Shown: positions 13,236 through 31,771 of the stretch, in pieces
Numbering within the stretch: position 1 is the first letter of the stretch
Layout: every line of letters begins with the position of its first letter
Assembly (NCBI GenBank): GCA_016192705.1
Contig: JACPTQ010000032.1
Coordinates: forward strand, 1-43,756
Direction: 5' to 3'
Length of the DNA stretch: 43,756 nucleotides
Origin: Deltaproteobacteria bacterium
Lineage (GTDB): Bacteria; Myxococcota; JACPTQ01
The notes under the pieces: model-generated
The model's input: only the letters and a program-made list of their open reading frames with translations
Database searches by the model: none
Told to the model about the DNA's origin: nothing
Position numbers and translations under genes: made by a program

Positions 13236-13344
13236 TCGGCCGATATGCGGGATGACATTTGGAACCACAACAGCGGCTCATGTGTTACCGCGCATGTCGT
13301 TCGGAGAATCGAAAGCCCCGCTCGCGGTAAGTGACAGGGAGCGG

Positions 13345-16300
13345 TTGTCCGTTCGCGGGGGCGCCACGCGCCGTCGGCTCGCGCTTGTCGTCTCTGTGGC
13401 CGCCACGGCGTGTACGGACCGGTCAATCGATAATGGCGCAGAGTCCGCGCGGCCAGAAGAAACGCGCACCGTCAAGCAGGCCGTCGTGACGGCGTTCGCG
13501 GCGGGTTCACTCGTCATCCCCATGGACACGACGTACCAGGACAACGGGATGCTCAAAGCGTTCGGGCTCGTTTACACGTTGGTGAAACGGGGCGTCCCGG
13601 TGAGGTGGGCGATCTTGACGCCTAAAGCGCAGGGCGCCACCGACTTCACGGCGAGCGGCGTCGATTTTCAGACGGGCGCGGTCATCACGGATTTTGGATA
13701 TCGTGGTGGTCCCTTCATCATCGACTCGGCGGATCGCGCGACGGCGGTGCCGATCGTTCAAGCGTGGCACGGAGCGGGGAACGTCACGACGGTGCACGAC
13801 ATGACCGCCGCGTTCAGCGCGGATGTTCGGTCGACGATAACCGTTGCGCCGCGCATCGCCGTATTCGTCGATGGGTACGAGACGATTCTTTTCGGATACT
13901 TGAATGCCGCTGGGATTACGGACAGCGCGGGACAGGCGTGGCCAGCGGCTCTCGACGCAACCGGTGTTTATGCGGGTTATCCAGATATTCTGAACGCCAC
14001 TGAAACAAAGGGCCCCGTCAACGGGTCGAACGACGGCGCTCTTTTCCGCGCGGGGGGCGTGCCCGATTTTTGCCAGTTCGCGGTGGCGCACCACCCACTG
14101 TCGGCGATCGACAACGAAGTTCGTCGCGAAGTTCGGCAATGGCTTGCGTCGAGCGCGTCGGTGCACGCGTTCATGGAGTGCGAGGCGATCCTCGCCTTTG
14201 AGAACAACGTGGCCACCGGGCGTTTCCTGTCGACAGCCGGCGTTAAACAGGACAGTTCGACAGCGCCCACGCCGCTCACGAACCGCACGCCAGACAACGC
14301 GATTTCGCAATACGACGGGACGATTCAGGCGAACAACTCAGCCTTCGCGATGGACTCGTTGACAAAGAATGGTGGCTCTTGGAAAGCGACGGTCGCGACC
14401 CATTTGAATCGCTCGACGTCTGCTCTCGGAACACGCGTCATGTGGCTCTCGGGAAACCTCGACGGCAACGCAGCGCAAGGAAAAGTCACGTACCTCACGG
14501 GGCACCAATACCCGACGACGCTGCCGATTTCGGCGAGCGCGCAGACGAATGGATCACGCCTCTTCCTTCAAAGCCTGCTTGACCCCGGGTGCACAACGGC
14601 GGTTCCGTCGCCAACTCTCACGTTCACGAAATCGGCACCCGCGTACACGAACGGCTCGTCGATCACTTTCACGATTTCGTACGGTAACACGGCCGGCGGC
14701 ACCGCCGAGGGCGCGGTGATTAAAGACGCGATCCCCGCGGGAACAACGTTCGTGTCGGCGACGGGCGGCGGCACGTTTGCGAGCGGCGTCGTGACGTGGA
14801 CGCTCGGCGATCTTGCGCCAGGCGCGTCGGGCTCCGTGTCGGTAACCGTTAGTGTCGCGTCCGACGGGACGTACACAAATGAGGCGCTCCTCAATTACCG
14901 CGTAGGACCGACGGCCAAGGCCCTTGCGAGCAACACCACGACCACGGTGCGCGACACCGCGGAGCCGACGACCACCATCGTTTCGGGACCGGCGAATCCG
15001 ACGAACTCGCCGATTGCGACTTTTGATTTCTCGTCGGACGACCCGCTTGCGACGTTCGAATGCAACCTCGACGCCGCGGGCTGGGCCGCGTGCAGCGACC
15101 CCGTGACCTTTACGGGCCTCTCCGAAACGCCGCACACGCTCGACGTCCGCGCGAAGGACGCAGCCGGTAACAGCGACGGAACACCCGCAACGCATACGTG
15201 GACAGTCGACACGACGCCGCCCGACACAAGCTTTTCGGTGACGCCGTCTGACCCGTCGAATACGCCAAATCCAACGTTTGGTTTCACGTCGACTGAGAGC
15301 CCAGCGACGTTCGAGTGCAAGCTCGATTCGGGTTCGTGGGCGCCGTGCACAAACCCGAAGTCGTACAGCGGCCTCGGCGACGGGAGCCACACATTCCAAG
15401 TTCGCGCGATGGACGCCGCAACCAACACGGACCCGTCGCCCGCATCGTACACGTGGACAATCGACGCGACCGCGCCTGACACGAGCATCACATCGAATCC
15501 GCCGGCCGCGACGCCCGCGACGTCCGCAACGTTCGTGTTTACGTCGACCGAAACCCCCTCGACCTTTGAATGCAAGCTCGACACGGGCGCGTGGACACCC
15601 TGCACGAGCCCCCAATCCTACAGCGGCCTCAGCGAAGCGACCCATACGTTCCAAGTCCGCGCGACGGATGCCGCGACCAACACCGACCCGACGCCCGCGC
15701 CGTACACATGGAGCGTCGACGCGACCGCGCCCAACACAACCATCACATCGAATCCACCCTTGGCCTCGAACTCCACATCGGCATCGTTCGCGTTCACATC
15801 GGACGAGAGTCCCGTGACGTACGAATGTCGGTTTGACACGGGCCCGTGGGCATCCTGCACATCGCCCCAGAGTTTTAGCGGCATTGCCGACGGCTCGCAC
15901 ACCTTCGCCGTGCGCGCGACCGACGCCGCGGGCAACATGGACGGCTCACCTGCATCGTACACTTGGACGGTCGATACCGTTGCGCCCGACACCAGCTTCT
16001 TATCGACACCGCCCAGCGCGTCGAATTCCTCGGCCGCATCGTTCAGTTTCACGTCGCTCGATGGAACGGCGACATTCGAATGCCGGCTCGACTCGGGCTC
16101 GTGGTCCGTCTGTACGAGCCCAGCGTCGCTTTCCGGCCTCGCCGATGGCTCGCACACCTACGACGTGCGTGCGAAAGACCCGGCTGGCAACACCGATGCA
16201 TCACCCGCGTCGTACACATGGACCGTCGACACCGCCATCCCCGAGACGAGCTTCACCGCGACTCCGCCCGTCCTCTCGAACACCGCGAGCGCGAGCTTCA

Positions 16301-19300
16301 GCTTTTCGTCGAACGAGGTTGGCGCGACGTTTGACTGCAAACTCGACACCGGCGCCTGGACCGCGTGCGCGAGCCCTCGAGATCTGACTGGGCTCGCGGA
16401 TGGATCCCACACGTTCTGGGTGCGCGCGAAAGACGCCGCCGGAAACGTCGATGCTTCACCCGCGCCATACACTTGGGCGATCGATACGGTTGTTCCGGAT
16501 ACAAACCTAACATCGACGCCGCCTTCGCAAAGCGCGTCGGGAAACGCGAGCTTCGGCTTTTCATCGCTCGACGTCACGGCGACTTTCGAGTGCAAACTTG
16601 ATACGGGCGCGTGGGGCGTCTGTACAAGTCCAACAAGTTATTCGAGTCTTGCGGACGGTGTTCACGCGTTCCAAGTTCGCGCGAAGGACCCGGCCGGCAA
16701 CGTTGACGCTTCGCCGGAATCGTACACTTGGACGATCGACACCGGTCCGCCGGATACATCGATCACGTCGAGTCCGCCGACGCTCACCAACGGCACGTCT
16801 GCCAATTTCGCGTTCACCTCGAACGAAGGGAGCGTGACGTACGAGTGCAAACTCGACGCGGCCGCGTGGTCGTCTTGTACAAGCCCTGTCTCGTTCACGG
16901 GCCTTTCGGCAGGAAGCCACACTTTCCTCGTGCGCGCGACCGATGCGGCTGGCAACGTTGATGCGACGCCGGCGTCGTACCCCTGGACGATCGACACGAC
17001 GGCGCCGGACACAAGCCTTACGTCGACGCCACCAGCCGTAACGTCATCAACCTCGGCGACCTTTGTCTTCTCATCGTTGGACGGCACGGCGACGTTTGAA
17101 TGCCGACTCGATGGCGCCGCGTGGGCCGCCTGCACGAGCCCCACGGATTACACAGGCTTCGCGGACGGGAGCCACGCGTTCGATGTTCGCGCGAAGGACC
17201 CCGCGGGCAATGTCGACGCAACGCCCGCTTCTTACACCTGGTCCATCGACACGACCGCGCCCGATACCTCGATCACGGCGAGCCCAGCGGCGACGACCGC
17301 AGCCAAGTCGGCCGCTTTCGAGTTCGCATCCGCCGACACCGCGGCCACGTTTGAATGTCGCGTGGATGGTGCTCCGTGGTCCACCTGCACGAGTCCGGCG
17401 ACGTACAGCGCGCTCGCCGAAGGGAACCATACTTTTGACGTCCGCGCGAAAGACCCGGCCGGCAACGTTGACGCGACGCCAGCTTCGTTCACATGGACCA
17501 TCGACCTCACAGCGCCCGATACGGCGATCGCGACAAAACCGGCAGCCATTTCAAACGTTTCGTCGCCGAGCTTTGGGTTCACGTCGAATGAAGTCGGCGC
17601 GACGTTCGAATGTAAGCTCGACGGCGCGGCGTTGTGGACAGCCTGCGCGACGCCCGTCACGTTTGCAGGTGTCGCGGACGGCAGCCATTCGCTCGACGTT
17701 CGCGCGAAGGACGTGGCTGGCAATCTCGATTCAACACCCGCGACATACACATGGGTCGTCGATACAGTCGCTCCCGACACCACCATCGATTCGGGCCCGG
17801 CCGCTCTCGTCGCGACGAGCAGCGCGAGCGTCACCTTCTCGTCTAACGACACCGCGGCGACGTTTGAGTGCAAGCTCGACGGTGCACCGTCTTTTACGGC
17901 GTGTATCAGTCCTTTCGCGCTCACCGGACTCAGTGACGGACCGCATTCGCTTGAGATTCGTGCGAGAGACCAAGCCGGCAACACCGATGCAACACCCGCG
18001 ACTCACGCTTGGACCGTCGACACTTCGGCACCGGTCGTGGCGATCGTTTCTGGCCCACCGGCTCAAAGCGGAAGTGCGAGCGCGACCTTCGATTTCTCGT
18101 CGAACGAAACGGGTGTCACATTCGAATGCAAACTCGACAGCGCCACCGGCTGGACGGCATGCACGGACCCTGTGACGTTCAACAGCCTCGTCGACGGGAG
18201 CCACACGCTTTCGGTGCGCGCGAAAGACGCCGCGGGGAATGTCTCGACCTCACCGGCCTCACAGACGTGGATCGTTGCGCCGGGTGCGCCCAACACAAGC
18301 GTCACGAGCGGACCGTCCAATCCAACCGACCAAACGAGCGCAACATTTGTTTTTTCCTCGGACCTTGCTGGCGTTTCGTTCGAGTGCCGTCTCGACGGTG
18401 CGTCGAGCTTCACCGCATGCCCGGGCACGGCGACGTTCCCGGGGCTTGGTGACGGCGAGCACACGCTTCAAGTGCGCGCCAAAACAAACGAAGGAGTCGT
18501 CGATCCGACGCCCGCGACCTGGACGTGGATCGTCGACACCGACGCGACGCCAGGCACAACCATCGTCTCTGGGCCATCGTCGCCAACCTCCGAGACCGCC
18601 GCCGCCTTTGACTTTTCTTCCGACGTTGCAGGCGTATCGTTTGAATGCAAGCTCGACTCGGCGACAACGTTTACGGCGTGCACGGATCCCGCGGTCTTCA
18701 ACGGGCTTGTGGATGGAACGCATCTCCTTGCCGTGCGCGCGAAAGACGCGGCGGGCAACGTCGATCCGACGCCCGCGACCTGGACCTGGATCGTCGACAC
18801 CGCCGCAACGCCCGAGACGACCGTTGCCCTTGGACCGCCGACCACGAATGCGCCCTCGAACGCGACCTTCTCGTTTTCATCCGATGTCGGGGACGCAACG
18901 TTTGAGTGCAGGCTCGACACGGCCGAGGCGTTTGGCGCTTGTGCGAACCCGGTGACCTACACCGCGCTTCTCGATGGCCCACACACGCTCGAAGTTCGCG
19001 CGAAGGCGACGACTGGGGCGGTCGATCCAACGCCCGCGACCTGGTCGTGGACGGTCGGTTCCGAAGTCGTCGATGGCGGACCGGATGCCGGCGGCGGCGC
19101 GCCAAGTCAAGATGCGGGGGTCTCGGCGGACGGGGGATCGTCGCCCGAGGATGCCGGGGCCATTGGCGGAGGAGTCTCGGCGCCGGACGGTGGCGAATCG
19201 CTCGTCAACGAAACGCCATCCGGGAGTGACGGCGGATGCGCGGTTGCGGCAACGTCGAATTCGACGCCCCACCTTGGGTTCGCGCTCCTCATCGTTGTCG

Positions 19301-19356
19301 GCGCGGCGACCCGCGCGCTTCGCCGCCGCGTATCGGCTCGCTCAAGAACCCGTTAG
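13345..19356 (+). CDS. Giant lipoprotein with 16 Ig-like repeats and MYXO-CTERM-like tail
   Basis: I choose the TTG at 13345 (about 2003 residues) because AGGGAG lies just upstream and a compact lipoprotein signal follows (ATRRRLALVVSVAATAC). The ATG at 13294 is the alternative. Residues 50-415 form an alpha/beta domain (VVTAFAAGSLVIPMDTTY, later MWLSGNLDGN) that I cannot name. Residues about 419-530 are a DUF11-like domain (FTISYGNTAGGTAEGAV). Residues 537-1905 are 16 tandem units of about 85-86 residues, each with two cysteines, of the form FECKLD...W..C..P and GSHTFxVRAxDAAGN. An Asp-Gly-Gly-rich linker follows, then a Cys, a hydrophobic helix and an Arg cluster (RALRRR), matching a MYXO-CTERM sorting tail. 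It is probably an anchored, stalk-like surface protein for adhesion or contact. It overlaps the convergent regulator gene by four bases. Confidence 0.88.
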   Translation: MSVRGGATRRRLALVVSVAATACTDRSIDNGAESARPEETRTVKQAVVTAFAAGSLVIPMDTTYQDNGMLKAFGLVYTLVKRGVPVRWAILTPKAQGATDFTASGVDFQTGAVITDFGYRGGPFIIDSADRATAVPIVQAWHGAGNVTTVHDMTAAFSADVRSTITVAPRIAVFVDGYETILFGYLNAAGITDSAGQAWPAALDATGVYAGYPDILNATETKGPVNGSNDGALFRAGGVPDFCQFAVAHHPLSAIDNEVRREVRQWLASSASVHAFMECEAILAFENNVATGRFLSTAGVKQDSSTAPTPLTNRTPDNAISQYDGTIQANNSAFAMDSLTKNGGSWKATVATHLNRSTSALGTRVMWLSGNLDGNAAQGKVTYLTGHQYPTTLPISASAQTNGSRLFLQSLLDPGCTTAVPSPTLTFTKSAPAYTNGSSITFTISYGNTAGGTAEGAVIKDAIPAGTTFVSATGGGTFASGVVTWTLGDLAPGASGSVSVTVSVASDGTYTNEALLNYRVGPTAKALASNTTTTVRDTAEPTTTIVSGPANPTNSPIATFDFSSDDPLATFECNLDAAGWAACSDPVTFTGLSETPHTLDVRAKDAAGNSDGTPATHTWTVDTTPPDTSFSVTPSDPSNTPNPTFGFTSTESPATFECKLDSGSWAPCTNPKSYSGLGDGSHTFQVRAMDAATNTDPSPASYTWTIDATAPDTSITSNPPAATPATSATFVFTSTETPSTFECKLDTGAWTPCTSPQSYSGLSEATHTFQVRATDAATNTDPTPAPYTWSVDATAPNTTITSNPPLASNSTSASFAFTSDESPVTYECRFDTGPWASCTSPQSFSGIADGSHTFAVRATDAAGNMDGSPASYTWTVDTVAPDTSFLSTPPSASNSSAASFSFTSLDGTATFECRLDSGSWSVCTSPASLSGLADGSHTYDVRAKDPAGNTDASPASYTWTVDTAIPETSFTATPPVLSNTASASFSFSSNEVGATFDCKLDTGAWTACASPRDLTGLADGSHTFWVRAKDAAGNVDASPAPYTWAIDTVVPDTNLTSTPPSQSASGNASFGFSSLDVTATFECKLDTGAWGVCTSPTSYSSLADGVHAFQVRAKDPAGNVDASPESYTWTIDTGPPDTSITSSPPTLTNGTSANFAFTSNEGSVTYECKLDAAAWSSCTSPVSFTGLSAGSHTFLVRATDAAGNVDATPASYPWTIDTTAPDTSLTSTPPAVTSSTSATFVFSSLDGTATFECRLDGAAWAACTSPTDYTGFADGSHAFDVRAKDPAGNVDATPASYTWSIDTTAPDTSITASPAATTAAKSAAFEFASADTAATFECRVDGAPWSTCTSPATYSALAEGNHTFDVRAKDPAGNVDATPASFTWTIDLTAPDTAIATKPAAISNVSSPSFGFTSNEVGATFECKLDGAALWTACATPVTFAGVADGSHSLDVRAKDVAGNLDSTPATYTWVVDTVAPDTTIDSGPAALVATSSASVTFSSNDTAATFECKLDGAPSFTACISPFALTGLSDGPHSLEIRARDQAGNTDATPATHAWTVDTSAPVVAIVSGPPAQSGSASATFDFSSNETGVTFECKLDSATGWTACTDPVTFNSLVDGSHTLSVRAKDAAGNVSTSPASQTWIVAPGAPNTSVTSGPSNPTDQTSATFVFSSDLAGVSFECRLDGASSFTACPGTATFPGLGDGEHTLQVRAKTNEGVVDPTPATWTWIVDTDATPGTTIVSGPSSPTSETAAAFDFSSDVAGVSFECKLDSATTFTACTDPAVFNGLVDGTHLLAVRAKDAAGNVDPTPATWTWIVDTAATPETTVALGPPTTNAPSNATFSFSSDVGDATFECRLDTAEAFGACANPVTYTALLDGPHTLEVRAKATTGAVDPTPATWSWTVGSEVVDGGPDAGGGAPSQDAGVSADGGSSPEDAGAIGGGVSAPDGGESLVNETPSGSDGGCAVAATSNSTPHLGFALLIVVGAATRALRRRVSARSRTR
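14953..19059 (+). repeat. 16 tandem coding repeats of about 257 bases
   Basis: Sixteen in-frame units encode the two-cysteine Ig-like modules of the giant lipoprotein. Nucleotide identity between units is moderate. Both cysteines are kept in every unit, as are the DGSHTF-like strand and the closing TWxVD in nearly all. The last four units (from about 18270) form a subfamily ending DPTPATWTW. This points to at least two rounds of duplication. Confidence 0.85.
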
Positions 19357-22362: not shown

Positions 22363-24087
22363 ATGGGCGCGTTGGAGGACGGAGAGTCGGGTGGTACTGC
22401 GTTTTTACCGGATCGGCAGCTGGATGTGCGTGCGGCGGTTCTCAGTCATCGCGCTTTGCCGCAACCCAAAGTTCGCACTGTCGCCGAGCTGATCACCAAG
22501 TGGCGTCGCGACGACCACGCCGATCCGCTCACGTTCATCGACACACAAAGTCCAAATTCTCCGCTTGCAATTGATCGTTTGCTCGACAAGTCGGAGCGTT
22601 TTGCGTCGGCCCTTTTGTCGCGTGGGCTTGGCGCGGGTGATCGCGTGCTTCTCCTCTTGCCGAGCGGCGAGGAGTTCGTCGCAGCCTTTTTTGGGGCGCT
22701 CATGGCGCGCACGGTTCCCGTCCCATGCGTCTTTCCGGTTGTGCTCGGCGACCCTAAGCCGCTCTTGGCGAACCTTGCCCCGATCGTCGCGAGCGCGCGT
22801 CCAAGGCTGCTCATCACTCTGCCGCAGGTTGCGGGCCCCGCGGCTGAATCGATCATGTCAAACGTTGGAGGCACGAAGGCCGTCCTCATACCGGAGATGG
22901 CGCACGCTACGCCACGCGCAGCCTCGCTTCCAGAAATCGACGAAAACGATCTTGCGCTCATTCAGTACACTTCGGGACCACTTGGCGAGCCGACGGGTGT
23001 CGCCTTAACTCACAATAATATCCTCGCCAATATTGATGGGATCGCATCCGTCTTACGGCTCAGCGACGCCGACATCGCACTGACGTGGGTGCCGCTCGTT
23101 CACGACATGGGCCTCATCGGCATGCTCCTCACGAGCTTTTACGCGCGGGCGCAACTCTTCGTGATGCCACCGCAGGTCTTTCTCATGCGACCGCATGCCT
23201 GGCTTCGCGCGATTTCGGATCTGCGCGCGACATTGTCCGCGGCGCCAAACGCCGCCTATCAGCTTTGCGTTCGACGCGTTACGGACCGCCATATGGAGGG
23301 ACTTGACCTTTCATCGTGGCGACTCGCATTGAATGGGTCTGAGTTTGTTCAGGCCACGACGGTCGATGCGTTCGCCGAGAAGTTTGGGCGCGTCGGGTTT
23401 CGTCGCAGCGCCTTCTACCCGCTTTACGGGCTTGCGGAAAACGCACTAGCGGCGACGTGCCCGGACCTCGAGCGCGCGTTCGTGGTGTCGACGTCTGGAG
23501 ATGGTGCAACGCCCGTCGTCGGCGTCGGTCGGCCGATCCGCGGGCAAGAGGTGGCGATTGTCAATGACGCCGGGGAAGTTGCGCGTGAACGTGAGGTCGG
23601 TGAGATCATCGTGCGCGGCCCTTCTGTCATGCGTGGCTACTTCAACAACGAACCCGCGACAGCGCGCGTGTTGTCTGGCGGCTGGCTTTACACCGGCGAT
23701 CTCGGATTCATTGAGCACGGGCAATTGTTTGTCGTGGGGCGCAAGAAGGAGATGGTTATTAAAGTTGGTCGGAACTACTACCCACGCGACATCGAGGAGG
23801 CCGCCGAGTCGGTGGCAGCGCTCGAGGGGGGGCGCGCGCTCGCCTTTGCATCGCCAAGCGCGACGGAAGGCACGGAGGATTTGGTGCTGATCGTTGAGAG
23901 CCGTGCGTTGGACGAAGCCGCCCGCCGGCAGCTGACCTTGGACGTAAACGGCGCCCTGCTTGCGAACGTTGGAATTCGTGCGGACCGTGTCGTGCCGATT
24001 CCGCCGGGGCGGATTTCGGGCGCGTCCCATCGCGCGGCGATTCGCGGTGAGCTTCGGCGCGAATTCGGAGACGGTCGCCTCGCATGA
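22363..24087 (+). CDS. Fatty acyl-AMP ligase-like protein lacking A3 and A10 lysines
   Basis: This ANL-superfamily protein of 574 residues has the FAAL layout: TWVPLVHDMGLIGMLLTSFY (241-260), SAAPNAAYQLCVRRV, YGLAENALAAT, YTGDLGF and GRNYYPRDIE. FAALs activate fatty acids as acyl-adenylates and pass them to an acyl carrier protein, and an ACP is encoded two genes downstream. Two key lysines are absent. The A3 loop reads YTSGPLGEPTG (202-212), with Thr211 for Lys and Pro-Leu for the usual Ser-Thr. The A10 motif reads RISGASHRAAIR, with Ala554 where SGK supplies the catalytic Lys. Adenylation may be impaired or altered. AGGAAAGGGG just upstream supports the start. The stop overlaps the next start by four bases. 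Confidence 0.85.
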   Translation: MGALEDGESGGTAFLPDRQLDVRAAVLSHRALPQPKVRTVAELITKWRRDDHADPLTFIDTQSPNSPLAIDRLLDKSERFASALLSRGLGAGDRVLLLLPSGEEFVAAFFGALMARTVPVPCVFPVVLGDPKPLLANLAPIVASARPRLLITLPQVAGPAAESIMSNVGGTKAVLIPEMAHATPRAASLPEIDENDLALIQYTSGPLGEPTGVALTHNNILANIDGIASVLRLSDADIALTWVPLVHDMGLIGMLLTSFYARAQLFVMPPQVFLMRPHAWLRAISDLRATLSAAPNAAYQLCVRRVTDRHMEGLDLSSWRLALNGSEFVQATTVDAFAEKFGRVGFRRSAFYPLYGLAENALAATCPDLERAFVVSTSGDGATPVVGVGRPIRGQEVAIVNDAGEVAREREVGEIIVRGPSVMRGYFNNEPATARVLSGGWLYTGDLGFIEHGQLFVVGRKKEMVIKVGRNYYPRDIEEAAESVAALEGGRALAFASPSATEGTEDLVLIVESRALDEAARRQLTLDVNGALLANVGIRADRVVPIPPGRISGASHRAAIRGELRREFGDGRLA

Positions 24088-25076
24088 ACGTTGTCGTCGT
24101 GGGCGGGACCGGGTTTCTCGGTCTCAACATCGTCGAGGCTTTTCGAGACGCCGGACACCATGTCGTCGCGACGCGGCGTCCCTCCTCAAACACGATTTTT
24201 TTGCGACGCCTCAAAGTCGGCATGGCAACGGCGTCGTTGACCGATGTTGATTCGCTCGTCTCGGTGCTGTCGGGCGCTGACGTCGTTTGCTTTGCCGCAG
24301 GCCACTACCCGCGCTTCTCGATCGACACCACGGCGCACGTCGCCCGCGCTGTCGCTGAGGTTGCAAACGTGCTCGAGGCCACGCGCCGTGCGGGCGTCGC
24401 GCGATTCATCTACACGGGCACGGTCGCAACGGTGGGCCGTCCGCGCGAGGATCGCCCAGCGGTCGAGACCGACGGAACCGCCGCGACGCCAGAGGGCTCA
24501 ACGTACATCGCGGTCAAACTCGCCATGGAGCGGGAAATCGAGCGCGCCTCACGGTCGGAACTCGACGTCATTACATTGCTCCCGACAGCGTGTATCGGGC
24601 CGTACGACCACAAGGTCGGAACAGGGTTTTTTCTCGTCGGGCTTGCGAACGGACTTTTGGACGTTTATGTCGACGGAAAGATTAACATCGTCGATGCGCG
24701 TGACGTGGCGCGTGCGCATGTCGCAGCGGCCGAAAAGCGGCGTCGTGGTGAACGCTTCATTATCGGTGGCACGAACATCCGCGTCGAAGAACTCTTTCGG
24801 CGCGTGGCAGAGCGATTTGAGGTGGCGATGCCGTCGCGGTGTCTCGACCCCGAGGCGGCGATTGCGTTTGCGATCGACGAGGAAGCCCGCGCTTCGAGCG
24901 AGAAACCGCCCGGTCGACCCAAAATCTCGCGCGAAATGGTCGACCTCATCATTCACGGACAGTTCGTCGATTCCGAAAAAGCGGCGCGTGAGCTTGCCTT
25001 CACGGTCCGTCCGCTCGACGAAACGATCGCGGCGGCGCACGCGTGGTATCGGGCCAACGGTTATTTGAAGCGATAG
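24084..25076 (+). CDS. NAD(P)-dependent epimerase/dehydratase (extended SDR)
   Basis: This is a 330-residue extended short-chain dehydrogenase/reductase. The Rossmann motif GGTGFLG is at residues 7-13 and the catalytic YxxxK is Y141/K145 (YIAVK). The C-terminal pattern RELAFTVRPLDETIAAAHAW followed by YRANGY resembles HpnA-like and dihydroflavonol-reductase-like members. The family oxidises or reduces hydroxyl and keto groups on sugars, steroids or acyl chains; the substrate is not evident. It starts inside the stop of the ligase-like gene (ATGA overlap), so the two are translationally coupled. In this operon it may act on a carrier-bound or released acyl product. Confidence 0.88.
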   Translation: MNVVVVGGTGFLGLNIVEAFRDAGHHVVATRRPSSNTIFLRRLKVGMATASLTDVDSLVSVLSGADVVCFAAGHYPRFSIDTTAHVARAVAEVANVLEATRRAGVARFIYTGTVATVGRPREDRPAVETDGTAATPEGSTYIAVKLAMEREIERASRSELDVITLLPTACIGPYDHKVGTGFFLVGLANGLLDVYVDGKINIVDARDVARAHVAAAEKRRRGERFIIGGTNIRVEELFRRVAERFEVAMPSRCLDPEAAIAFAIDEEARASSEKPPGRPKISREMVDLIIHGQFVDSEKAARELAFTVRPLDETIAAAHAWYRANGYLKR

Positions 25077-25094
25077 CAAGGGAGGATGCTCACA

Positions 25095-25352
25095 ATGGGA
25101 ACGACCAAAGAAAAAGTTGCTGACCGCGTGTTCGGGATTCTCTCGGAACTCGCGGCGATACCGCGCGGCGATATTCGCGGTGGCGATCGATTGCGCGAAG
25201 ACCTTGGGCTCGATTCGATGCAGAACATGGAGTTGTTGTCGCGGGTCGCCGAGGAGTTCAACATCGACCCCGACATGGACAAGGTGATGAAGGTTGTCAC
25301 CGTTGATGAAGTCGTGACGCTCCTCGCGGGACACATCGGGGTCGGGGAATGA
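25095..25352 (+). CDS. Acyl carrier protein
   Basis: This is a free-standing carrier of 85 residues. The phosphopantetheine motif is DLGLDSMQNMEL, with Ser41 as attachment site, in a typical four-helix acidic fold. The ATG at 25095 is chosen because AAGGGAGG is correctly spaced from it; an ATG at 25086 would touch that site. The stop overlaps the radical SAM start (ATGA), so stoichiometric coupling is likely. Between an acyl-AMP-ligase-like gene, a radical SAM and an acyl-CoA-dehydrogenase-like gene, it most likely carries the fatty acyl substrate, as in the stand-alone ACPs of lipopeptide starter units. Confidence 0.93.
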   Translation: MGTTKEKVADRVFGILSELAAIPRGDIRGGDRLREDLGLDSMQNMELLSRVAEEFNIDPDMDKVMKVVTVDEVVTLLAGHIGVGE

Positions 25353-26647
25353 AAATCACGTTCGTCTACCCGGCGTTTGAGCGTCACGCCGACGCGCACC
25401 CGGAGCTCAAGGCGTGGGTTCCTGCGAACGAGTACATTGGGCCACCGTCGCTCGGCATCGCGTGTGTCGCCGCCGCGACGCCGCCGGGACACACCGTGGA
25501 GTTTATCGATGACCGCGTGACGCCCTTCAATGTCGATCACGAGTCCGATCTCTTCGCGCTTTCGTTTTTCACGCCGGCGGCAACCCGCGCGATCGAAATT
25601 GCGGACGCCTTGAGGGCGCGCGGGAAACGAGTTGTTGCAGGCGGCATTTTCCCGTCGATGATGCCGGAGGCCGTCGCGTCCCACTTCGACGCCGTCGTGG
25701 TCGGCGAAGGGGAACCGGTCTGGGCGGACGTGGTCAACGACGCCGAACACGGCGCGCTCCGCCCGCGCTACAGCGCGCCACCCGCGGATCTCGCGCCGCT
25801 TGTTCCGCCGCAGGTCGATCTCTACCTCGGCGCCGAACGTGACGGCTATCGTCCCGACGACTATCCACTCCAGATTTCGCGCGGTTGCCCGCTCCATTGC
25901 GACGCGTGCGTTCTCCCCGAATACCTCGCGCCCAAGATGCGTTTTCATTCGATGGACTACTTGACCGCGACCATGAAGCGGTACGCGGCCGCCGGCAAAC
26001 TCGCATCGTTCACCGAGGACACATCGTTCTTCCCGCAGGCGCGACGCGGTTTTCGTGAGCTCATCGAACTTTGCGTAAAGCTCCAGGGCGAAGGCCTCAA
26101 TCTGCGTCTCAGCTACATCGGCATTAGCCTTCCCATAATTCTCAACCTCGATCCGACGCTCCTCGCTGACCTAAAGAGAACTGGCATCGATCGCTTTTAC
26201 GTCGTTGGCGGCTTCGATCCCGTGACGCGCGGCGCGTTTGGCCCCGGCGATCCCAAGATGCTCGACAAAGCCGTTCGCGCCATCGCGCGTTGCCACGAAT
26301 TTGGTATCGACCCGTATGTTTCGTTTCTTGTGGGCAACAGGGATGACGATGAGGGAACGTTCGACCGGATGCTCGAATTCACGCGGGTCGCGAAGATTGA
26401 CCTCGCGGAGTTTTGTATCTCAACGCCTTACCCTGGGACGCCGATCTGGCGGCGGTACAACGACGAGGGGCGCGTCTTCGATCGCGCGTGGAAACATTAC
26501 AACGACGCGAACATCGTTTTTCGTCCGCACAATATGACGCCGGAGCGACTCTTCGAGGGATATCTCTACCTTTGGCGCGAGTTTTATCAGGGGCGGGCGC
26601 GCGACATGTCGGAACGCCCGCACACGCGAAGCACCATCCAATTTTGA
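25349..26647 (+). CDS. Cobalamin-type radical SAM enzyme (BchE-like class)
   Basis: The protein has 432 residues. The N-terminal 130 form a B12-binding-like alpha/beta domain (PPSLGIACVAAATPPGHTVE, VVAGGIFPSMMPE, VVVGEGEPVW). The DxHxxG motif of base-off cobalamin binding is not seen. Residues 175-380 are the radical SAM domain, with CPLHCDAC supplying the 4Fe-4S ligands Cys180, Cys184 and Cys187. The end (STPYPGTPIWRR, later NIVFRPHNMTPERL) matches the DUF4070-like tail of this class. Members methylate, cyclise or rearrange unreactive carbons. Its coupling to the ACP gene suggests that the substrate is an acyl-ACP. The reaction is not predictable from sequence. Confidence 0.88.
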   Translation: MKITFVYPAFERHADAHPELKAWVPANEYIGPPSLGIACVAAATPPGHTVEFIDDRVTPFNVDHESDLFALSFFTPAATRAIEIADALRARGKRVVAGGIFPSMMPEAVASHFDAVVVGEGEPVWADVVNDAEHGALRPRYSAPPADLAPLVPPQVDLYLGAERDGYRPDDYPLQISRGCPLHCDACVLPEYLAPKMRFHSMDYLTATMKRYAAAGKLASFTEDTSFFPQARRGFRELIELCVKLQGEGLNLRLSYIGISLPIILNLDPTLLADLKRTGIDRFYVVGGFDPVTRGAFGPGDPKMLDKAVRAIARCHEFGIDPYVSFLVGNRDDDEGTFDRMLEFTRVAKIDLAEFCISTPYPGTPIWRRYNDEGRVFDRAWKHYNDANIVFRPHNMTPERLFEGYLYLWREFYQGRARDMSERPHTRSTIQF

Positions 26648-26668
26648 GCGAGGAATAAGGGAGGCGAA

Positions 26669-28318
26669 ATGACGACAACAACGGCGACGAGAGAGGTGAG
26701 CGATCCCATTTCGAAAGTTCTCGCGCGGCCGGACGAAATCGCCGACAGCCTCGTGATGACAGGGGCGAGCGCCGCCGAGGCGGAGTCGGTGGATTTGATG
26801 CTCGGCGCAGTTCGGACCTGGGCGGGGCGTCACGTCAACAGCGAGACGACCGATCGGTGTGGCCAGGTGCCCCGCGCCCTTTACGCGTCGGCCGCCGAGT
26901 TGGGGTTGTTTGGTTTGCTCGTGCCCGAAACGCACGGCGGTGCGGGGTTCTCGTTGACCGCCGCTGGGCGCCTCATCGAGGAAGTTGCCACGTTTGACCG
27001 CTCCGTCGCAACCGGCATCGGAATGCACAACGGGCTCGGGCTCCGGGGACTGATTCGCTTTGGTTCGCGCGCGCAGCGGGAAAGGTACTTGCCGGAAATC
27101 GCTGTTGGGAAGCGGATTACCGCGTTCGCATGCACAGAGCCGGAGGCTGGCTCTCACATCGCCGGTGTTAAAACCACGGCGCGTTGGGATGGAGACAAGA
27201 CGCTCACCATCAGCGGCACAAAGTGCTTCGTGACGAACGGCGCGTTCGCCGATCTCTTTACGATTCTCGCGGCAACGCCCGGATTGGGCGGCGCGAAGCG
27301 GGGCCTCTCGCTCATTTTGGTTCCGCGCGAAACCGCCGGCATCTCAATCGGCAAAAAAGAAGAGACGCTCGGCATTCGCGGGTCTTCAACAACAACGGTC
27401 ACGTTCGACGACGTCAAGATTGGCATTGACCACGTCCTTGGGGAGCCATCGCGCGGACTCGAGCATCTCGCCGATGTGCTGGCGTGGGGGCGAACGCTCA
27501 TGTCGGCTGGGTGCGTTGGGACGGCCCGCGAGGCATATCGACGCGCTGCGGGCTACGTCATGACGCGGCACCAGTTCGGGCGCGCGATCGGGACGTTCGG
27601 ACAAGTGCGCGCGAAAATCGCCGCGATGCGATCGACGCTCTTCGCGATGGAGAGTCTCGTGCGCCTGACGACGCAACTTGCGTCGACGGCGACATCCGAT
27701 ATCGTTTGGGAGTCGTCGATTGCGAAAGTCTTTGCGAGCGAGGCGACATGGCGGATCGCGGACGACGCGGTACAGCTTCACGGCGGTTCGGGCTTTTGCG
27801 AAGAGACAGGCGTTGCGCGTCTCTTGCGCGATTGCCGCATCACGCGCATCTTTGAGGGGGCGAACGAACTCCTCAGATTTCACATTTCATCGGCGGCACT
27901 TGGGTTCACGGCGAGCCTTACGGGAGGACCGCGGCTCACGGCGCGCGTCGATGGTCGACTCAGCGATCTCACCCACATCGTCGATGGACACGTTACCTCG
28001 TACGTCCAGGCGATCGACGTATTGCGCGAGCGGTACGGCATTCGCGTCGCCGAACACCAATCGCTCCTCGCGCACCTTGCCGATGCGTCCATTGGGCTCG
28101 TCGCGCTGATCGCCGTCGTCTTGCGGGCGCACGGTGAACTGCGTGTTGCGCCAAGCAGCGAGCGGGCCGAACACGTCGTGATGTTGGCGCATCACGCGGC
28201 GGAAACGCTGTCCCGCACCGTCGTTGACGGCCTCGTCGCAACCGCGACGGAATCGACCGAGAAGCGTGCCCGAGCCATTTCCGACCACGCGTATGCCGAG
28301 ATTTCACGAGGTCTTTAA
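26669..28318 (+). CDS. Acyl-CoA dehydrogenase family protein, VLCAD-like
   Basis: This FAD-dependent alpha,beta-dehydrogenase has 549 residues. The core shows TEPEAGSH (157-164), the flavin-binding LHGGSGFCEE region near 370-380 and the catalytic base Glu396 in IFEGANELLRF. About 140 residues of extra helical C-terminus follow, as in very-long-chain enzymes (VLCAD/ACAD9); simple family members have about 380-400 residues. The start has GGGAGG upstream. It is the last gene of the operon, 21 bases after the radical SAM. In enduracidin- and ramoplanin-type clusters, such enzymes desaturate fatty acyl-ACPs made by a FAAL/ACP pair, and a similar role is plausible here. Confidence 0.9.
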   Translation: MTTTTATREVSDPISKVLARPDEIADSLVMTGASAAEAESVDLMLGAVRTWAGRHVNSETTDRCGQVPRALYASAAELGLFGLLVPETHGGAGFSLTAAGRLIEEVATFDRSVATGIGMHNGLGLRGLIRFGSRAQRERYLPEIAVGKRITAFACTEPEAGSHIAGVKTTARWDGDKTLTISGTKCFVTNGAFADLFTILAATPGLGGAKRGLSLILVPRETAGISIGKKEETLGIRGSSTTTVTFDDVKIGIDHVLGEPSRGLEHLADVLAWGRTLMSAGCVGTAREAYRRAAGYVMTRHQFGRAIGTFGQVRAKIAAMRSTLFAMESLVRLTTQLASTATSDIVWESSIAKVFASEATWRIADDAVQLHGGSGFCEETGVARLLRDCRITRIFEGANELLRFHISSAALGFTASLTGGPRLTARVDGRLSDLTHIVDGHVTSYVQAIDVLRERYGIRVAEHQSLLAHLADASIGLVALIAVVLRAHGELRVAPSSERAEHVVMLAHHAAETLSRTVVDGLVATATESTEKRARAISDHAYAEISRGL

Positions 28319-28423: not shown

Positions 28424-31400
28424 ATGAAACGTTCAGTCGCAGCGGCCGTTGTTAGTCTGGGCCTTGTGTCCTGCACGAACACAACGATTTTGAACACGAT
28501 GGAGATGCGGATCACGCTTCCCACGTCGCGCGTCCCGAACGAAGAGATCGCGTCGGTCGAGGTTGTTCTTGAGCTCGCAGCCGGCTTTGAATCGCGGTGG
28601 GGGCCGAGCGACGAGACGGCGGTCGTCGGCGTCAGGACGGCGGAGGGTTTTCAGGCGACAACCCAGATCGCCGATGTCAACGCGAACGGGCGCCGCGAAT
28701 TTACGCTCAAGCTTCCGCTGAATCCGTTCGGCGCCGGGAGCTCGTGGCCACTCTTTCTTAACTCGAACCCAGAGGAATCCCAGTTCACCGCATCAGCAAA
28801 AGTGTTGTCGTCGACGCGCGTTCTTTACACGGGCGGACAAACCGTCGATACGGCATATCGCCCGATTCGGTTTTTTCGTGAGGGGAACGTCGTCGTCGTG
28901 GTGCTCAGTTGCGCCATCGCAAGCGATTGTGACCTTGATGGGGGCACCGATGGCGGCGGCACCGACGCGGGTGATGCAGGTGATGCGGGTGTTGCAGCGG
29001 ACGCGAGCGTTCCCGTTCAAGATGCGTCGGTATCGGTCGACCTCGCGCTCGTTCGCTTGATCCGAAATCCGGTTGGAACGGCCGATCGGATCGAGGGAGC
29101 CGACGCCTCCGCGAGCGCGGGCGCGCTTGTCACGGCGTATCGCGACCTCGATGGAGGTGCGTCGATCGGCTCGGGGACCGTTGCCCCATCGGGTGCATTC
29201 GCGATCACGCTGACGGACGAGGATGTTCAATCCGCGGCGATTCGAGCCACAAACGGCGACGCTTCAACGGCGCTTTCGCTCGTCACCCAAAAACGGCTCG
29301 TCGCAACGTTCGCCGGCAAGGACGCGGGTTCAACCACAGAGAACCCGCACGTCGCGCGCTGGACCTTCACGAATCAGCTCCAGCCAACGTTGTCGACGCT
29401 CGTTGCCGACGGCGGCTCGTTTGAATTCTCGACGGGCGACTATGGAGCGCTCGCATCGAGCGATGCGACATCCGCCGTCAACGACGCGGGTCTTGCGTCG
29501 ACCGGGCTCACCGCGACGAAGCTCTTTGTCGACGCGCGACGATCGGTCGGTGCGGTTTACCGACCCATCGACCAGTCGATTTACATCTTCGGAGGAAACC
29601 TCGCCTCCGACGTGTGGACTTGGAATGGGTTCATGTGGTTTCAGGTTACGCCGACCGATGGCGGCCCGCCGTCGGAGCGCGACACGGCGGCGGTTGCGTA
29701 CGACCGGCGACGCGACAAGATCTGGGTTTTTGGCGGATGCTCGACGCTGAACTGCGTCGGCCCCTTCAAAGACGATCTTTGGGAGTTTCACGTGGCGAGC
29801 AAGACGTGGACGAATCGGACTCCGGTGGGCGATGCCGGTCTTGTTCGGCCAGCTGGACGGATCGACCACGCGATGGCCTTCGACGAGCGAAACGACGCGC
29901 TCGTTCTTTTCGGTGGCACGCTTTCACCGTCTGACACCAAGACGTGGGTTTTTAGTCCAGACGCGTCGACATGGACCGCCTACGACGCAAGCGTCGCCTC
30001 TCCGACAAACCGGGCTGAGCACGCGATGGTGTTTTGGGGGGATGCCGGGAGCGCAAGCTCGCGGGTGATCTTGCACGGTGGGTACCGCACGGGGTCTGGC
30101 GTCTTGAGCGACACGTATCTTTGGGACGGAAACACGAAAGCGTGGTCGCAGCCGACGCCGACGTCATTCCCAGATGCAGGGCGCCGTAGATTCCGCCTCA
30201 CGCGGAAAGAGACCGATCCAAACGGGAATCCGATTTTCCTGTTTGGCGGAATCCCGGCATCGGGTTCGACGTGGCCAACCAACGTCTTCGAGATGAGCTA
30301 CAACCCTGGAACAACGACGATCACATGGAAAGAGTACGGGACAACGGGGATCGACGCGGGTCGGCTCGAGATGGCGTGGGCGACGCGGTCAGACGGGAAG
30401 CTCGTTATTTTCGGCGGATACCGGCAAGACACGACGCCGAGCCCGATGGGAGACACGCTTGTTGGCACCGTCAACGTGAGTCAGGTCGATTTTGTTGACC
30501 AGCAATCCAGCTCGACGCGAATGCCGCCCGCGCTTTTCCAGGCCGGGCTTGTTTACGACGCAACGCAAACGCGCGTTGTTCTTGCGACCGGTCGAACGCT
30601 GGGTGGAGCGCAAACAGCAACCGCCGAAACTTGGATTTACGACACCGGGAGCTGGACGCGTGGCAGCGATCATCCCGCAGCGCGATGGGGAGCGGTCGTG
30701 ACGGATGATCCGGTGACGAGTGGACTGCCGCTCCTTTTCGGAGGCAACAACGGGACGTCGCTTTTCCAGGACACGTATCTTTTTTCGAGCAACAGCTGGT
30801 CGCCCCGATCTGTCACGACGAAACCGGCCGTGAGGTGGGGCGCGGCGGTCATGACCGATCCCCAACGAAGCCGCGTGGTGGTGTTTGGCGGGTGCGGCGG
30901 ACTCGGGGGCATAAACGGCGGCCCGCCTCTCGCTGACACGTGGGAATGGGATGGGACAAATTGGTCGTCGGTGACGACGACGACGGCGCCGCCCGCGAGG
31001 TCGTTCGCGACGTTTGCTTACGACTCGGTAAGGAGGAAAGGCGTGCTCTACGGCGGTGATGCCGACGAGGAGTGTGACGGCTACGTTGGTGCGCTAAACG
31101 ACACGTGGGAGTTTGACGGAACGGGTCCGAGCTGGACGCAAGTCGACGCCGGTGGGCCGGGTGACGGAAGAAAGGACCACGCGGCGGTGTTCGATTCGAG
31201 GCGGGGGCGCGTTGTCATGCACGGTGGGCGCGCCGACGGAGGGATGAGCGCCGAGGTGTTCGAGTACGATGGCGTCGCTTGGACGCAGCTCGGATTGACG
31301 AGTTTGACGCCTCACGAAAAGCACAGCATGACATTCGACCATTCGGTCGGAGAGGCTTACATTTTCGGTGGCGTCTCGAACGACTTCTGGAAGGTGACCC

Positions 31401-31771
31401 TTGGTGGACGGTTCGCGGAGCAACTGTTCCAGTTCAATGTTGCTGCGGCGGGCGTAACGGCGCCGTACGGGGCGCTCCGCGTCAAGGCCGTTGCGACGGG
31501 GAGCGGCGCACGTGGAACGACGCCGTCGCCTACGTTTCAGATTACGAACGGCGTTTATGTTTTTGCGTGGAACGCGTCGCTTTCACGTTGGGACGCCGTT
31601 TTTCTGGGTCCAGGCGAGGGCACGATCGAAGCGACCATCGCGACGACCAGCACAGCTCAATACGTTTCGAGCGGCGTTGTTAGTCTTCTCGTCGCGACGC
31701 GACACCCGTCGTCGACAAACATTCCGTCCGTCCTCGCGGCAGATTTCATCGAGCTCTCGATCGATTATTAG
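28424..31771 (+). CDS. Kelch-repeat lipoprotein, probable double beta-propeller
   Basis: The start at 28424 begins a good lipoprotein signal (MKRSVAAAVVSLGLVSC); the upstream in-frame start at 28346 would add charged residues before it. The protein is 1115 residues. A beta domain (20-170) precedes an Asp-Ala-Gly linker (about 175-205). A second small beta domain with carboxypeptidase-regulatory-like phrasing follows. Residues about 390-1000 carry some eleven kelch motifs (YIFGGN, WVFGGC, VLFGGT, LLFGGN, VVFGGC, VLYGGD, VMHGGR and others) plus one degenerate motif, enough for two propellers. A final beta domain closes the protein. It probably binds ligands or glycans at the outer membrane. Which ligand is unknown. 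Confidence 0.87.
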   Translation: MKRSVAAAVVSLGLVSCTNTTILNTMEMRITLPTSRVPNEEIASVEVVLELAAGFESRWGPSDETAVVGVRTAEGFQATTQIADVNANGRREFTLKLPLNPFGAGSSWPLFLNSNPEESQFTASAKVLSSTRVLYTGGQTVDTAYRPIRFFREGNVVVVVLSCAIASDCDLDGGTDGGGTDAGDAGDAGVAADASVPVQDASVSVDLALVRLIRNPVGTADRIEGADASASAGALVTAYRDLDGGASIGSGTVAPSGAFAITLTDEDVQSAAIRATNGDASTALSLVTQKRLVATFAGKDAGSTTENPHVARWTFTNQLQPTLSTLVADGGSFEFSTGDYGALASSDATSAVNDAGLASTGLTATKLFVDARRSVGAVYRPIDQSIYIFGGNLASDVWTWNGFMWFQVTPTDGGPPSERDTAAVAYDRRRDKIWVFGGCSTLNCVGPFKDDLWEFHVASKTWTNRTPVGDAGLVRPAGRIDHAMAFDERNDALVLFGGTLSPSDTKTWVFSPDASTWTAYDASVASPTNRAEHAMVFWGDAGSASSRVILHGGYRTGSGVLSDTYLWDGNTKAWSQPTPTSFPDAGRRRFRLTRKETDPNGNPIFLFGGIPASGSTWPTNVFEMSYNPGTTTITWKEYGTTGIDAGRLEMAWATRSDGKLVIFGGYRQDTTPSPMGDTLVGTVNVSQVDFVDQQSSSTRMPPALFQAGLVYDATQTRVVLATGRTLGGAQTATAETWIYDTGSWTRGSDHPAARWGAVVTDDPVTSGLPLLFGGNNGTSLFQDTYLFSSNSWSPRSVTTKPAVRWGAAVMTDPQRSRVVVFGGCGGLGGINGGPPLADTWEWDGTNWSSVTTTTAPPARSFATFAYDSVRRKGVLYGGDADEECDGYVGALNDTWEFDGTGPSWTQVDAGGPGDGRKDHAAVFDSRRGRVVMHGGRADGGMSAEVFEYDGVAWTQLGLTSLTPHEKHSMTFDHSVGEAYIFGGVSNDFWKVTLGGRFAEQLFQFNVAAAGVTAPYGALRVKAVATGSGARGTTPSPTFQITNGVYVFAWNASLSRWDAVFLGPGEGTIEATIATTSTAQYVSSGVVSLLVATRHPSSTNIPSVLAADFIELSIDY

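Follow-up and report, generated by a model that had tools for sequence, protein, structure and literature searches.

A 43,756-nucleotide stretch of a Myxococcota genome, called the window here, carries five plus-strand genes (22363-28318) that encode a ligase, an extended short-chain dehydrogenase/reductase (SDR), an acyl carrier protein (ACP), a B12-fold radical S-adenosylmethionine (SAM) enzyme, and an acyl-CoA-dehydrogenase-like protein (ACAD). Such a set raises the question of what a radical SAM enzyme that is coupled to a carrier protein modifies, and for which product, when no nonribosomal peptide synthetase (NRPS) or polyketide synthase (PKS) lies next to it. On comparative sequence grounds, the five genes are a genuine, conserved, and uncharacterized acyl-ACP tailoring operon that is probably linked to the synthesis of sphingoid-type amino-lipids. 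A preliminary description of the locus, made from the DNA and its translations, is partly supported; new relative to it are the genome-wide absence of NRPS and type I PKS, the switch between the SDR and an alpha-oxoamine synthase (AOS) as partner enzyme, the layout shared with the ceramide operon, the degeneration of the ligase, and the structural relatives of the radical SAM enzyme. The features of the operon are as follows.

22363..24087, + strand: fatty acyl-AMP ligase (FAAL)-like ligase, 574 aa; Pfam AMP-binding, 206 bits; best NCBIfam match, fatty acyl-AMP ligase; best PDB match, 3pbk; motif alignment
24084..24087, + strand: ATGA overlap of ligase and SDR; aasR and epi of E. coli BL21(DE3) overlap by the same 4 bp
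24084..25076, + strand: extended SDR of the NAD epimerase/dehydratase type, 330 aa; Pfam Epimerase, 102.6 bits; HpnA-like, below the cut-off
25086..25352, + strand: dedicated ACP, 88 aa; Pfam PP-binding, 39.5 bits; S44; alignment of 34 orthologues
25349..26647, + strand: B12-binding-fold radical SAM enzyme, 432 aa; Pfam B12-binding, 39.5 bits, and Radical_SAM, 33.5 bits; AlphaFold model; alignments
26669..28318, + strand: VLCAD/ACAD9-type ACAD-family protein, 549 aa; Pfam ACAD N, M, and C domains and ACAD9-ACADV_C above the cut-off; PDB ACAD9/VLCAD, E~1e-78

Conservation and partner genes of the operon

The coordinates confirm the compact layout described initially, with two ATGA overlaps of 4 bp (24084-24087, ligase/SDR; 25349-25352, ACP/radical SAM) and two short gaps (9 bp, SDR/ACP; 21 bp, radical SAM/ACAD), and the Pfam and NCBIfam searches, run for all five products, agree with the protein classes that had been assigned. 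All five reading frames are intact, and the motifs of the ACAD, SDR, ACP, and radical SAM enzyme are conserved.

Orthologues of the radical SAM enzyme, defined by E <= 4.5e-133 (the next full-length match lies at 4.7e-51), were found in 26 of 195 Myxococcota genomes from ten families, and more were found in further GTDB contigs. The set recurs in about 30 or more genomes, beyond what chance would give. Wherever the contig extends far enough, the ACP and ACAD genes almost always adjoin the radical SAM gene, in one of two orders: ACP-radical SAM-ACAD, as in the window, or ACP-ACAD-radical SAM. The exceptions are an acidobacterial locus (L050), a locus in which the radical SAM gene lies beside the set on the opposite strand and no SDR was found (L048), and cases at contig edges. 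The pathway-type SDR, defined by E <= 1e-40, occurs in 20 of 189 genomes, 18 of which also possess the radical SAM orthologue, so that SDR orthologues are almost confined to operon genomes. Distances within any one of the five families track those within the others (pairwise r of 0.87-0.94; Mantel p, 0.001), with a contribution from shared genome descent. Thus, the conserved block supports the original proposal of a dedicated fatty-acyl-ACP tailoring operon, and the neighborhood comparison in Myxococcota did not reveal the scattered orthologues or unrelated partners that had been named as signs against such a pathway.

The partner enzyme depends on the lineage and is the SDR, the SDR together with FabF, or a serine palmitoyltransferase (SPT)-like AOS. 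Most relatives retain the SDR. In two loci (L039 and L043), the operon begins with a FabF gene that overlaps the FAAL gene or directly adjoins it; in three others, where no FAAL was found (L038, L041, and L042), FabF lies upstream. The myxococcotal family f2 lacks the SDR, and in four of its genomes (G003, G004, G007, and G009), the gene of a pyridoxal phosphate enzyme, the AOS, overlaps the stop codon of the ACAD gene by 4 bp; in another (G002), the AOS orthologue is on a separate contig. The f2 loci with an SPT-like gene overlapping ACAD are L037, L044, L065, L066, and L068. The f2 AOS contains the GTFSK lysine motif, and its best matches in both NCBIfam and the PDB are serine palmitoyltransferases, at scores under all curated cut-offs.

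A related arrangement was observed in a Bryobacterales acidobacterium (L050, 5178-15069), where genes for a radical SAM enzyme, a reducing PKS, an SPT-like AOS, and a short-chain reductase lie in a row, similarly to fungal sphinganine-analogue clusters. The radical SAM enzyme of this locus, at ∼51% identity, groups with family f2 in the tree (93/99).

The window genome (G000) has AOS genes on three contigs (C14, C42, and C73), none of them linked to the operon. The C14 gene, which carries the GTFSK motif, encodes a 594-aa AOS with an unassigned N-terminal extension of ∼200 aa and is followed by genes for a UbiA-like prenyltransferase, a diacylglycerol-kinase-like lipid kinase, and ThiL (L108, 6066-10826). 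This is a candidate for the sphingolipid locus of the genome.

The genes on either side of the operon were rejected as pathway members, as the neighbors on both sides differ in each lineage. Downstream, after a 105-bp gap, the same strand carries a large Kelch-repeat lipoprotein gene (28424-31771; likely ATG at 28424), and the upstream neighbor is a 298-aa open reading frame (ORF); neither is conserved alongside the operon. The Kelch lipoprotein stands beside the operon in the window, and FAD oxidases, radical SAM enzymes, PAP2, and a lyase do so in other lineages. A scan for promoters and terminators gave no signal exceeding that of shuffled sequences.

Enzymes of the operon

The radical SAM enzyme combines the two hallmarks of the cobalamin-dependent class, namely, the Cx3Cx2C cluster motif (C180-x3-C184-x2-C187) and an N-terminal B12-binding domain. 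The latter scores 39.5 bits against PF02310 (gathering threshold, 32.1), and S72 and G98-G99 fit the SxL/GG pattern of B12-binding motifs; Radical_SAM, at 33.5 bits, also exceeds its gathering threshold. A C-terminal T-[IV]-Q-F is near-invariant among the operon orthologues. No curated NCBIfam family was reached at its cut-off. The best solved-structure matches of the AlphaFold model (pLDDT, 94.5) are AprD4 (TM-score, 0.75), MgmA, TsrM, CysS, and TokK, which share the fold at TM-scores of 0.58-0.75 by query length but are at most 16-18% identical and act on different substrates. CysS, a B12 radical SAM enzyme crystallized with a pantetheinylated substrate, sets a precedent for chemistry on carrier-bound groups. 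C-methylation is the commonest chemistry of the B12-binding radical SAM fold and, by analogy, the most likely modification here; cobalamin binding is putative, as are the methylation, rearrangement, or cyclization proposed initially.

The view that the radical SAM enzyme belongs with the ACP is borne out by their 4-bp overlap, which is kept in several lineages, and by homologues fused to two ketosynthases elsewhere. In Verrucomicrobiota, Fibrobacterota, and Chitinivibrionales, more distant homologues occur as fusions with two FabF-type ketosynthases or next to them, and these fusions place the radical SAM family on ACP-bound chains; in the tree, the fusion group forms a separate clade. The fusions themselves are single polypeptides of Verrucomicrobiota and Chitinivibrionales (L053, 3865-7626; L054, 10001-13756; L055, 10001-13801; L057, 10001-13756), with an N-terminal B12-fold radical SAM homologue (33-38%) followed by FabF-type ketosynthase domains, and are adjoined by FabG, FabD, and GcvT-like genes.

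The ACP carries its phosphopantetheine serine, S44, in an LG(L/M/F)DS motif that is invariant in the 34 aligned orthologues. In the ACAD alignment, the catalytic-base glutamate (E396, in RIFEGANE) is intact, and three ACAD domains plus the ACAD9/ACADV C-terminal domain assign the protein to the VLCAD/ACAD9 type; assignment to the MbtN-type acyl-ACP dehydrogenases was rejected (NCBIfam, 46.6 bits; cut-off, 700). The aligned SDRs conserve YxxxK (Y141 and K145) and YPRxS (75-79). Identity of the SDR with the hopanoid sugar epimerase HpnA was rejected (215 bits versus a cut-off of 368), another SDR of the genome scoring higher; by profile and by model, the operon SDR resembles both cinnamoyl-CoA reductases and nucleotide-sugar epimerases, and no thioester-reductase family matched above the NCBIfam cut-off.

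The first gene product had been described as acyl-AMP-ligase-like. Membership in the FAAL family holds: the FAAL-type core motifs HDMGL, GRN.YP, and YGxAE are present in the alignment, the protein scores 384 bits against PRK09192 of NCBIfam, under the cut-off of 600, and 3pbk, its best PDB match, is E. coli AasR. However, the motif alignment shows an A3 loop that reads SGPLGEPTGV and an A10 motif without the SGK lysine, and lacking both the lysine and an intact A3 loop, the ligase may not adenylate. Enzymes of the ANL superfamily hardly adenylate once the A10 lysine is lost, and the window ligase is probably impaired or altered in this activity. The A3 loops of two near relatives are degraded as well (SGRTHLPGGV in L062 and SGPALTPRGV in L063), and the SGK lysine is gone there too, whereas it is kept in the 21 other complete operon FAALs. 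Because this loss is common to genomes of two other families with full operons, it appears to be an old, tolerated change. Intact copies of a second ligase, FAAL2, are present in the same genomes as the degenerate operon ligases and could charge the operon ACP in trans; given the degenerate ligase, ACP loading in the window genome is probably performed by another enzyme, for example, an intact AasR-type ligase encoded elsewhere.

Parallels with ceramide and polyketide-AOS loci

The starter modules of ramoplanin and enduracidin, initially named for comparison, are less close in organization than the bacterial ceramide operon aasR-epi-acpR-spt. Padilla-Gomez et al. (PMC9386255) describe these four genes as the makers of ceramide precursors in Caulobacter and in E. 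coli BL21(DE3), a function shown for the operon in Rhodobacteria. The rhodobacterial operon, aasR-epi(cerR)-acpR-spt, corresponds to CC_1165-1162 in Caulobacter and to ECD_02851-02854 in E. coli BL21(DE3), where a FAAL gene is followed by an epimerase-family gene with a 4-bp overlap, an ACP gene, and spt overlapping the latter. The order and tight coupling of ligase, SDR, and ACP match between the window (22363-25352) and the E. coli locus (L147, 10834-13713), including the ATGA overlap, and in both cases, a dedicated ACP is paired with a dedicated FAAL-type ligase for its charging. In the f2 relatives, the likeness extends to an SPT-like gene at the operon end. Conversely, the window operon continues after the ACP with the radical SAM and ACAD genes and has no spt. 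By sequence comparison, then, the operon resembles the ceramide operon in layout and logic, not in orthology, and falls outside that operon family.

A second system that combines a FAAL, a dedicated ACP, and a route to an alpha-oxoamine is a FAAL2-ACP-PKS cluster that is widespread in Myxococcota (L148-L150 and L152-L155; for example, L154, 3409-13578). Its PKS (∼2300 aa) consists of ketosynthase, acyltransferase (AT), ketoreductase, and dehydratase domains plus a C-terminal AOS, often accompanied by a CMAS-like methyltransferase, and the cluster is possibly a PKS route to sphingoid bases. The AOS domain of this cluster was found in 45 of 189 genomes. The cluster is present in 18 of the 20 genomes with SDR-type operons, in none of the 5 f2 genomes, and in 27 of the 164 others (Fisher p, 6e-11, kinship ignored); the two SDR-type genomes that lack it are the window genome and G111. 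It differs from the operon in its use of a PKS module, in its AasR-like FAAL2, and in its absence from the window genome.

In the nearest relative of the window genome (G156), a FAAL2 gene directly follows the operon ACAD (L035, 4158-5717). Its product is 64% identical to the FAAL2 of the cluster in G194 and is orthologous to the ligases of the PKS/AOS clusters.

Proposed pathway and competing explanations

With a probability of about 0.42, the operon is a dedicated acyl-ACP tailoring module that ultimately yields an unusual-chain membrane lipid of the sphingoid (amino-alcohol) type. For the reaction order, the substrate, the radical SAM chemistry, and the product class, we infer the following route. 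A fatty acid would be loaded onto the operon ACP, and the ACAD flavoenzyme would introduce a double bond in the ACP-bound chain, most likely at the alpha,beta position, as ACADs do in other FAAL/ACP/ACAD sets. The B12-fold radical SAM enzyme would then modify the chain, most likely by C-methylation; an AOS (or FabF), whose gene may lie inside or outside the operon, would condense the tailored acyl-ACP; and the SDR would reduce the ketone arising from the condensation. A sphingoid-type product is proposed because the condensing partner in related lineages is an AOS of the serine palmitoyltransferase type. The conservation of the block, the gene order held in common with the ceramide operon, the intact motifs of four products, the frequent PKS/AOS cluster in SDR-type genomes, and the lack of NRPS and type I PKS in the window genome also speak for this route. 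The open literature searched yielded no paper on such a combination of enzyme classes.

Several observations weigh against a sphingoid-type product. No AOS or other condensing enzyme adjoins the operon in the window, which contains no serine palmitoyltransferase gene, and the operon ligase of this genome is degenerate. Orthology with the ceramide enzymes is not supported for either candidate: E. coli AasR groups with FAAL2 (100/98), with the operon FAALs outside this clade, and the SDR scores 42 bits against E. coli Epi, versus 53.5 each for two unrelated HpnA-like SDRs that the window genome encodes. Finally, the PKS/AOS protein is absent from the window genome, and its co-occurrence with the operon was counted regardless of phylogeny; within family f8 alone, operon and cluster are not associated.

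The strongest competitor, which we consider possible but doubtful, is that the product is a modified fatty acid, alcohol, or aldehyde that is either released by the SDR in the manner of a cinnamoyl-CoA reductase or elongated by FabF and is destined for ordinary membrane lipids or serves as a signal. The SDR matches cinnamoyl-CoA reductases equally well, FabF heads the operon or lies upstream of it in the loci named above, and SDR-type operons lack an adjacent AOS, all as expected under this explanation. The SDR is missing, however, exactly where the AOS is present, in family f2, which fits a ketone-handling step better, and the lack of a thioester-reductase match also argues against release by this enzyme.

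Far less probable is that the radical SAM enzyme is an AprD4-like, cobalamin-free dehydratase that, with the SDR as an AprD3-like reductase, deoxygenates a hydroxylated chain. AprD4 is indeed the top structural match (TM-score, 0.75), and the operon pairs a radical SAM enzyme with an SDR. Nevertheless, AprD4 aligns with a Cx3Cx3C spacing, whereas the operon family has Cx3Cx2C, like MgmA, CysS, and TokK; the B12-binding domain passes the gathering threshold of Pfam; and the f2 lineage dispenses with the SDR.

Another explanation, a starter-unit module for a lipopeptide or polyketide assembly line encoded elsewhere, is already largely refuted here and retains little probability. In known modules of this kind (ramoplanin and enduracidin; MbtM/MbtL/MbtN of mycobactin; ScoA-C of isonitrile lipopeptides), a FAAL-type ligase, a free ACP, and an ACAD, the same enzyme classes as in the operon, act on one acyl-ACP and feed an NRPS; these modules are not known to have a radical SAM enzyme or an epimerase-type SDR. 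The lack of an adjacent assembly line, asserted from the start, extends to the entire window genome. No PKS or NRPS was detected in the flanking ORFs of the window, in a scan that excluded the C-terminal part of a 2020-aa ORF (13294-19356), and in the 5.21-Mb assembly, which is 96.65% complete, there is no NRPS condensation domain (PF00668), no type I PKS was found, and the single AT domain sits in a frame of 403 aa, the size that FabD would have. With no condensation domain and one free-standing AT, a lipopeptide starter module is ruled out for this genome as far as the assembly goes. Condensation domains are also absent from five relatives (G002, G009, G163, G026, and G150), and the ACAD is far under the MbtN cut-off. 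SDR-type relatives mostly hold the PKS/AOS cluster elsewhere in the genome, but this cluster has its own FAAL2 and ACP.

An equally slim chance is assigned to a ladderane- or polyene-type hydrocarbon pathway, in which the radical SAM enzyme would form rings on an ACP-bound polyene. Kuste2803, a B12-binding radical SAM protein of anammox bacteria, is a ladderane candidate (PMC2649909) in a comparable fatty-acid/ACP gene context, and the distant homologues fused to or beside two FabF-type ketosynthases, together with a weak match to the ladderane-associated family TIGR04072, are in line with this possibility. Membership in TIGR04072 was nonetheless rejected (36.4 bits; cut-off, 360), the fusion group is a separate clade, and the window operon has neither a type II fatty acid synthesis gene set nor a set of ketosynthase, dehydratase, or desaturase genes.

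The least credible explanation is that the operon is decaying or repurposed in the window genome, its pathway no longer running as in relatives: the A3 and A10 motifs are lost in the window ligase as in L062 and L063, but none of the five frames is disrupted, the four remaining proteins keep their active sites, and the motif loss is shared with two other families that have full operons, in genomes that also carry an intact FAAL2.

A more specific form of the sphingoid-type pathway appears unlikely, although not negligible: the radical SAM enzyme would methylate or otherwise alter the ACAD-desaturated, ACP-bound chain before an AOS turns that chain into a branched and unsaturated sphingoid base of a new class, in a previously undescribed lipid pathway of Myxococcota. 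Desaturation ahead of condensation would then give bacteria a way to make Delta4-sphingosine-like bases. More generally, the operon is a testable gene set for studying how radical enzymes alter fatty chains bound to carriers when no NRPS or PKS system is involved. It also suggests that uncommon membrane lipids, sphingoid-type or other, belong to the little-explored lipid chemistry of deep, mostly uncultured Myxococcota.

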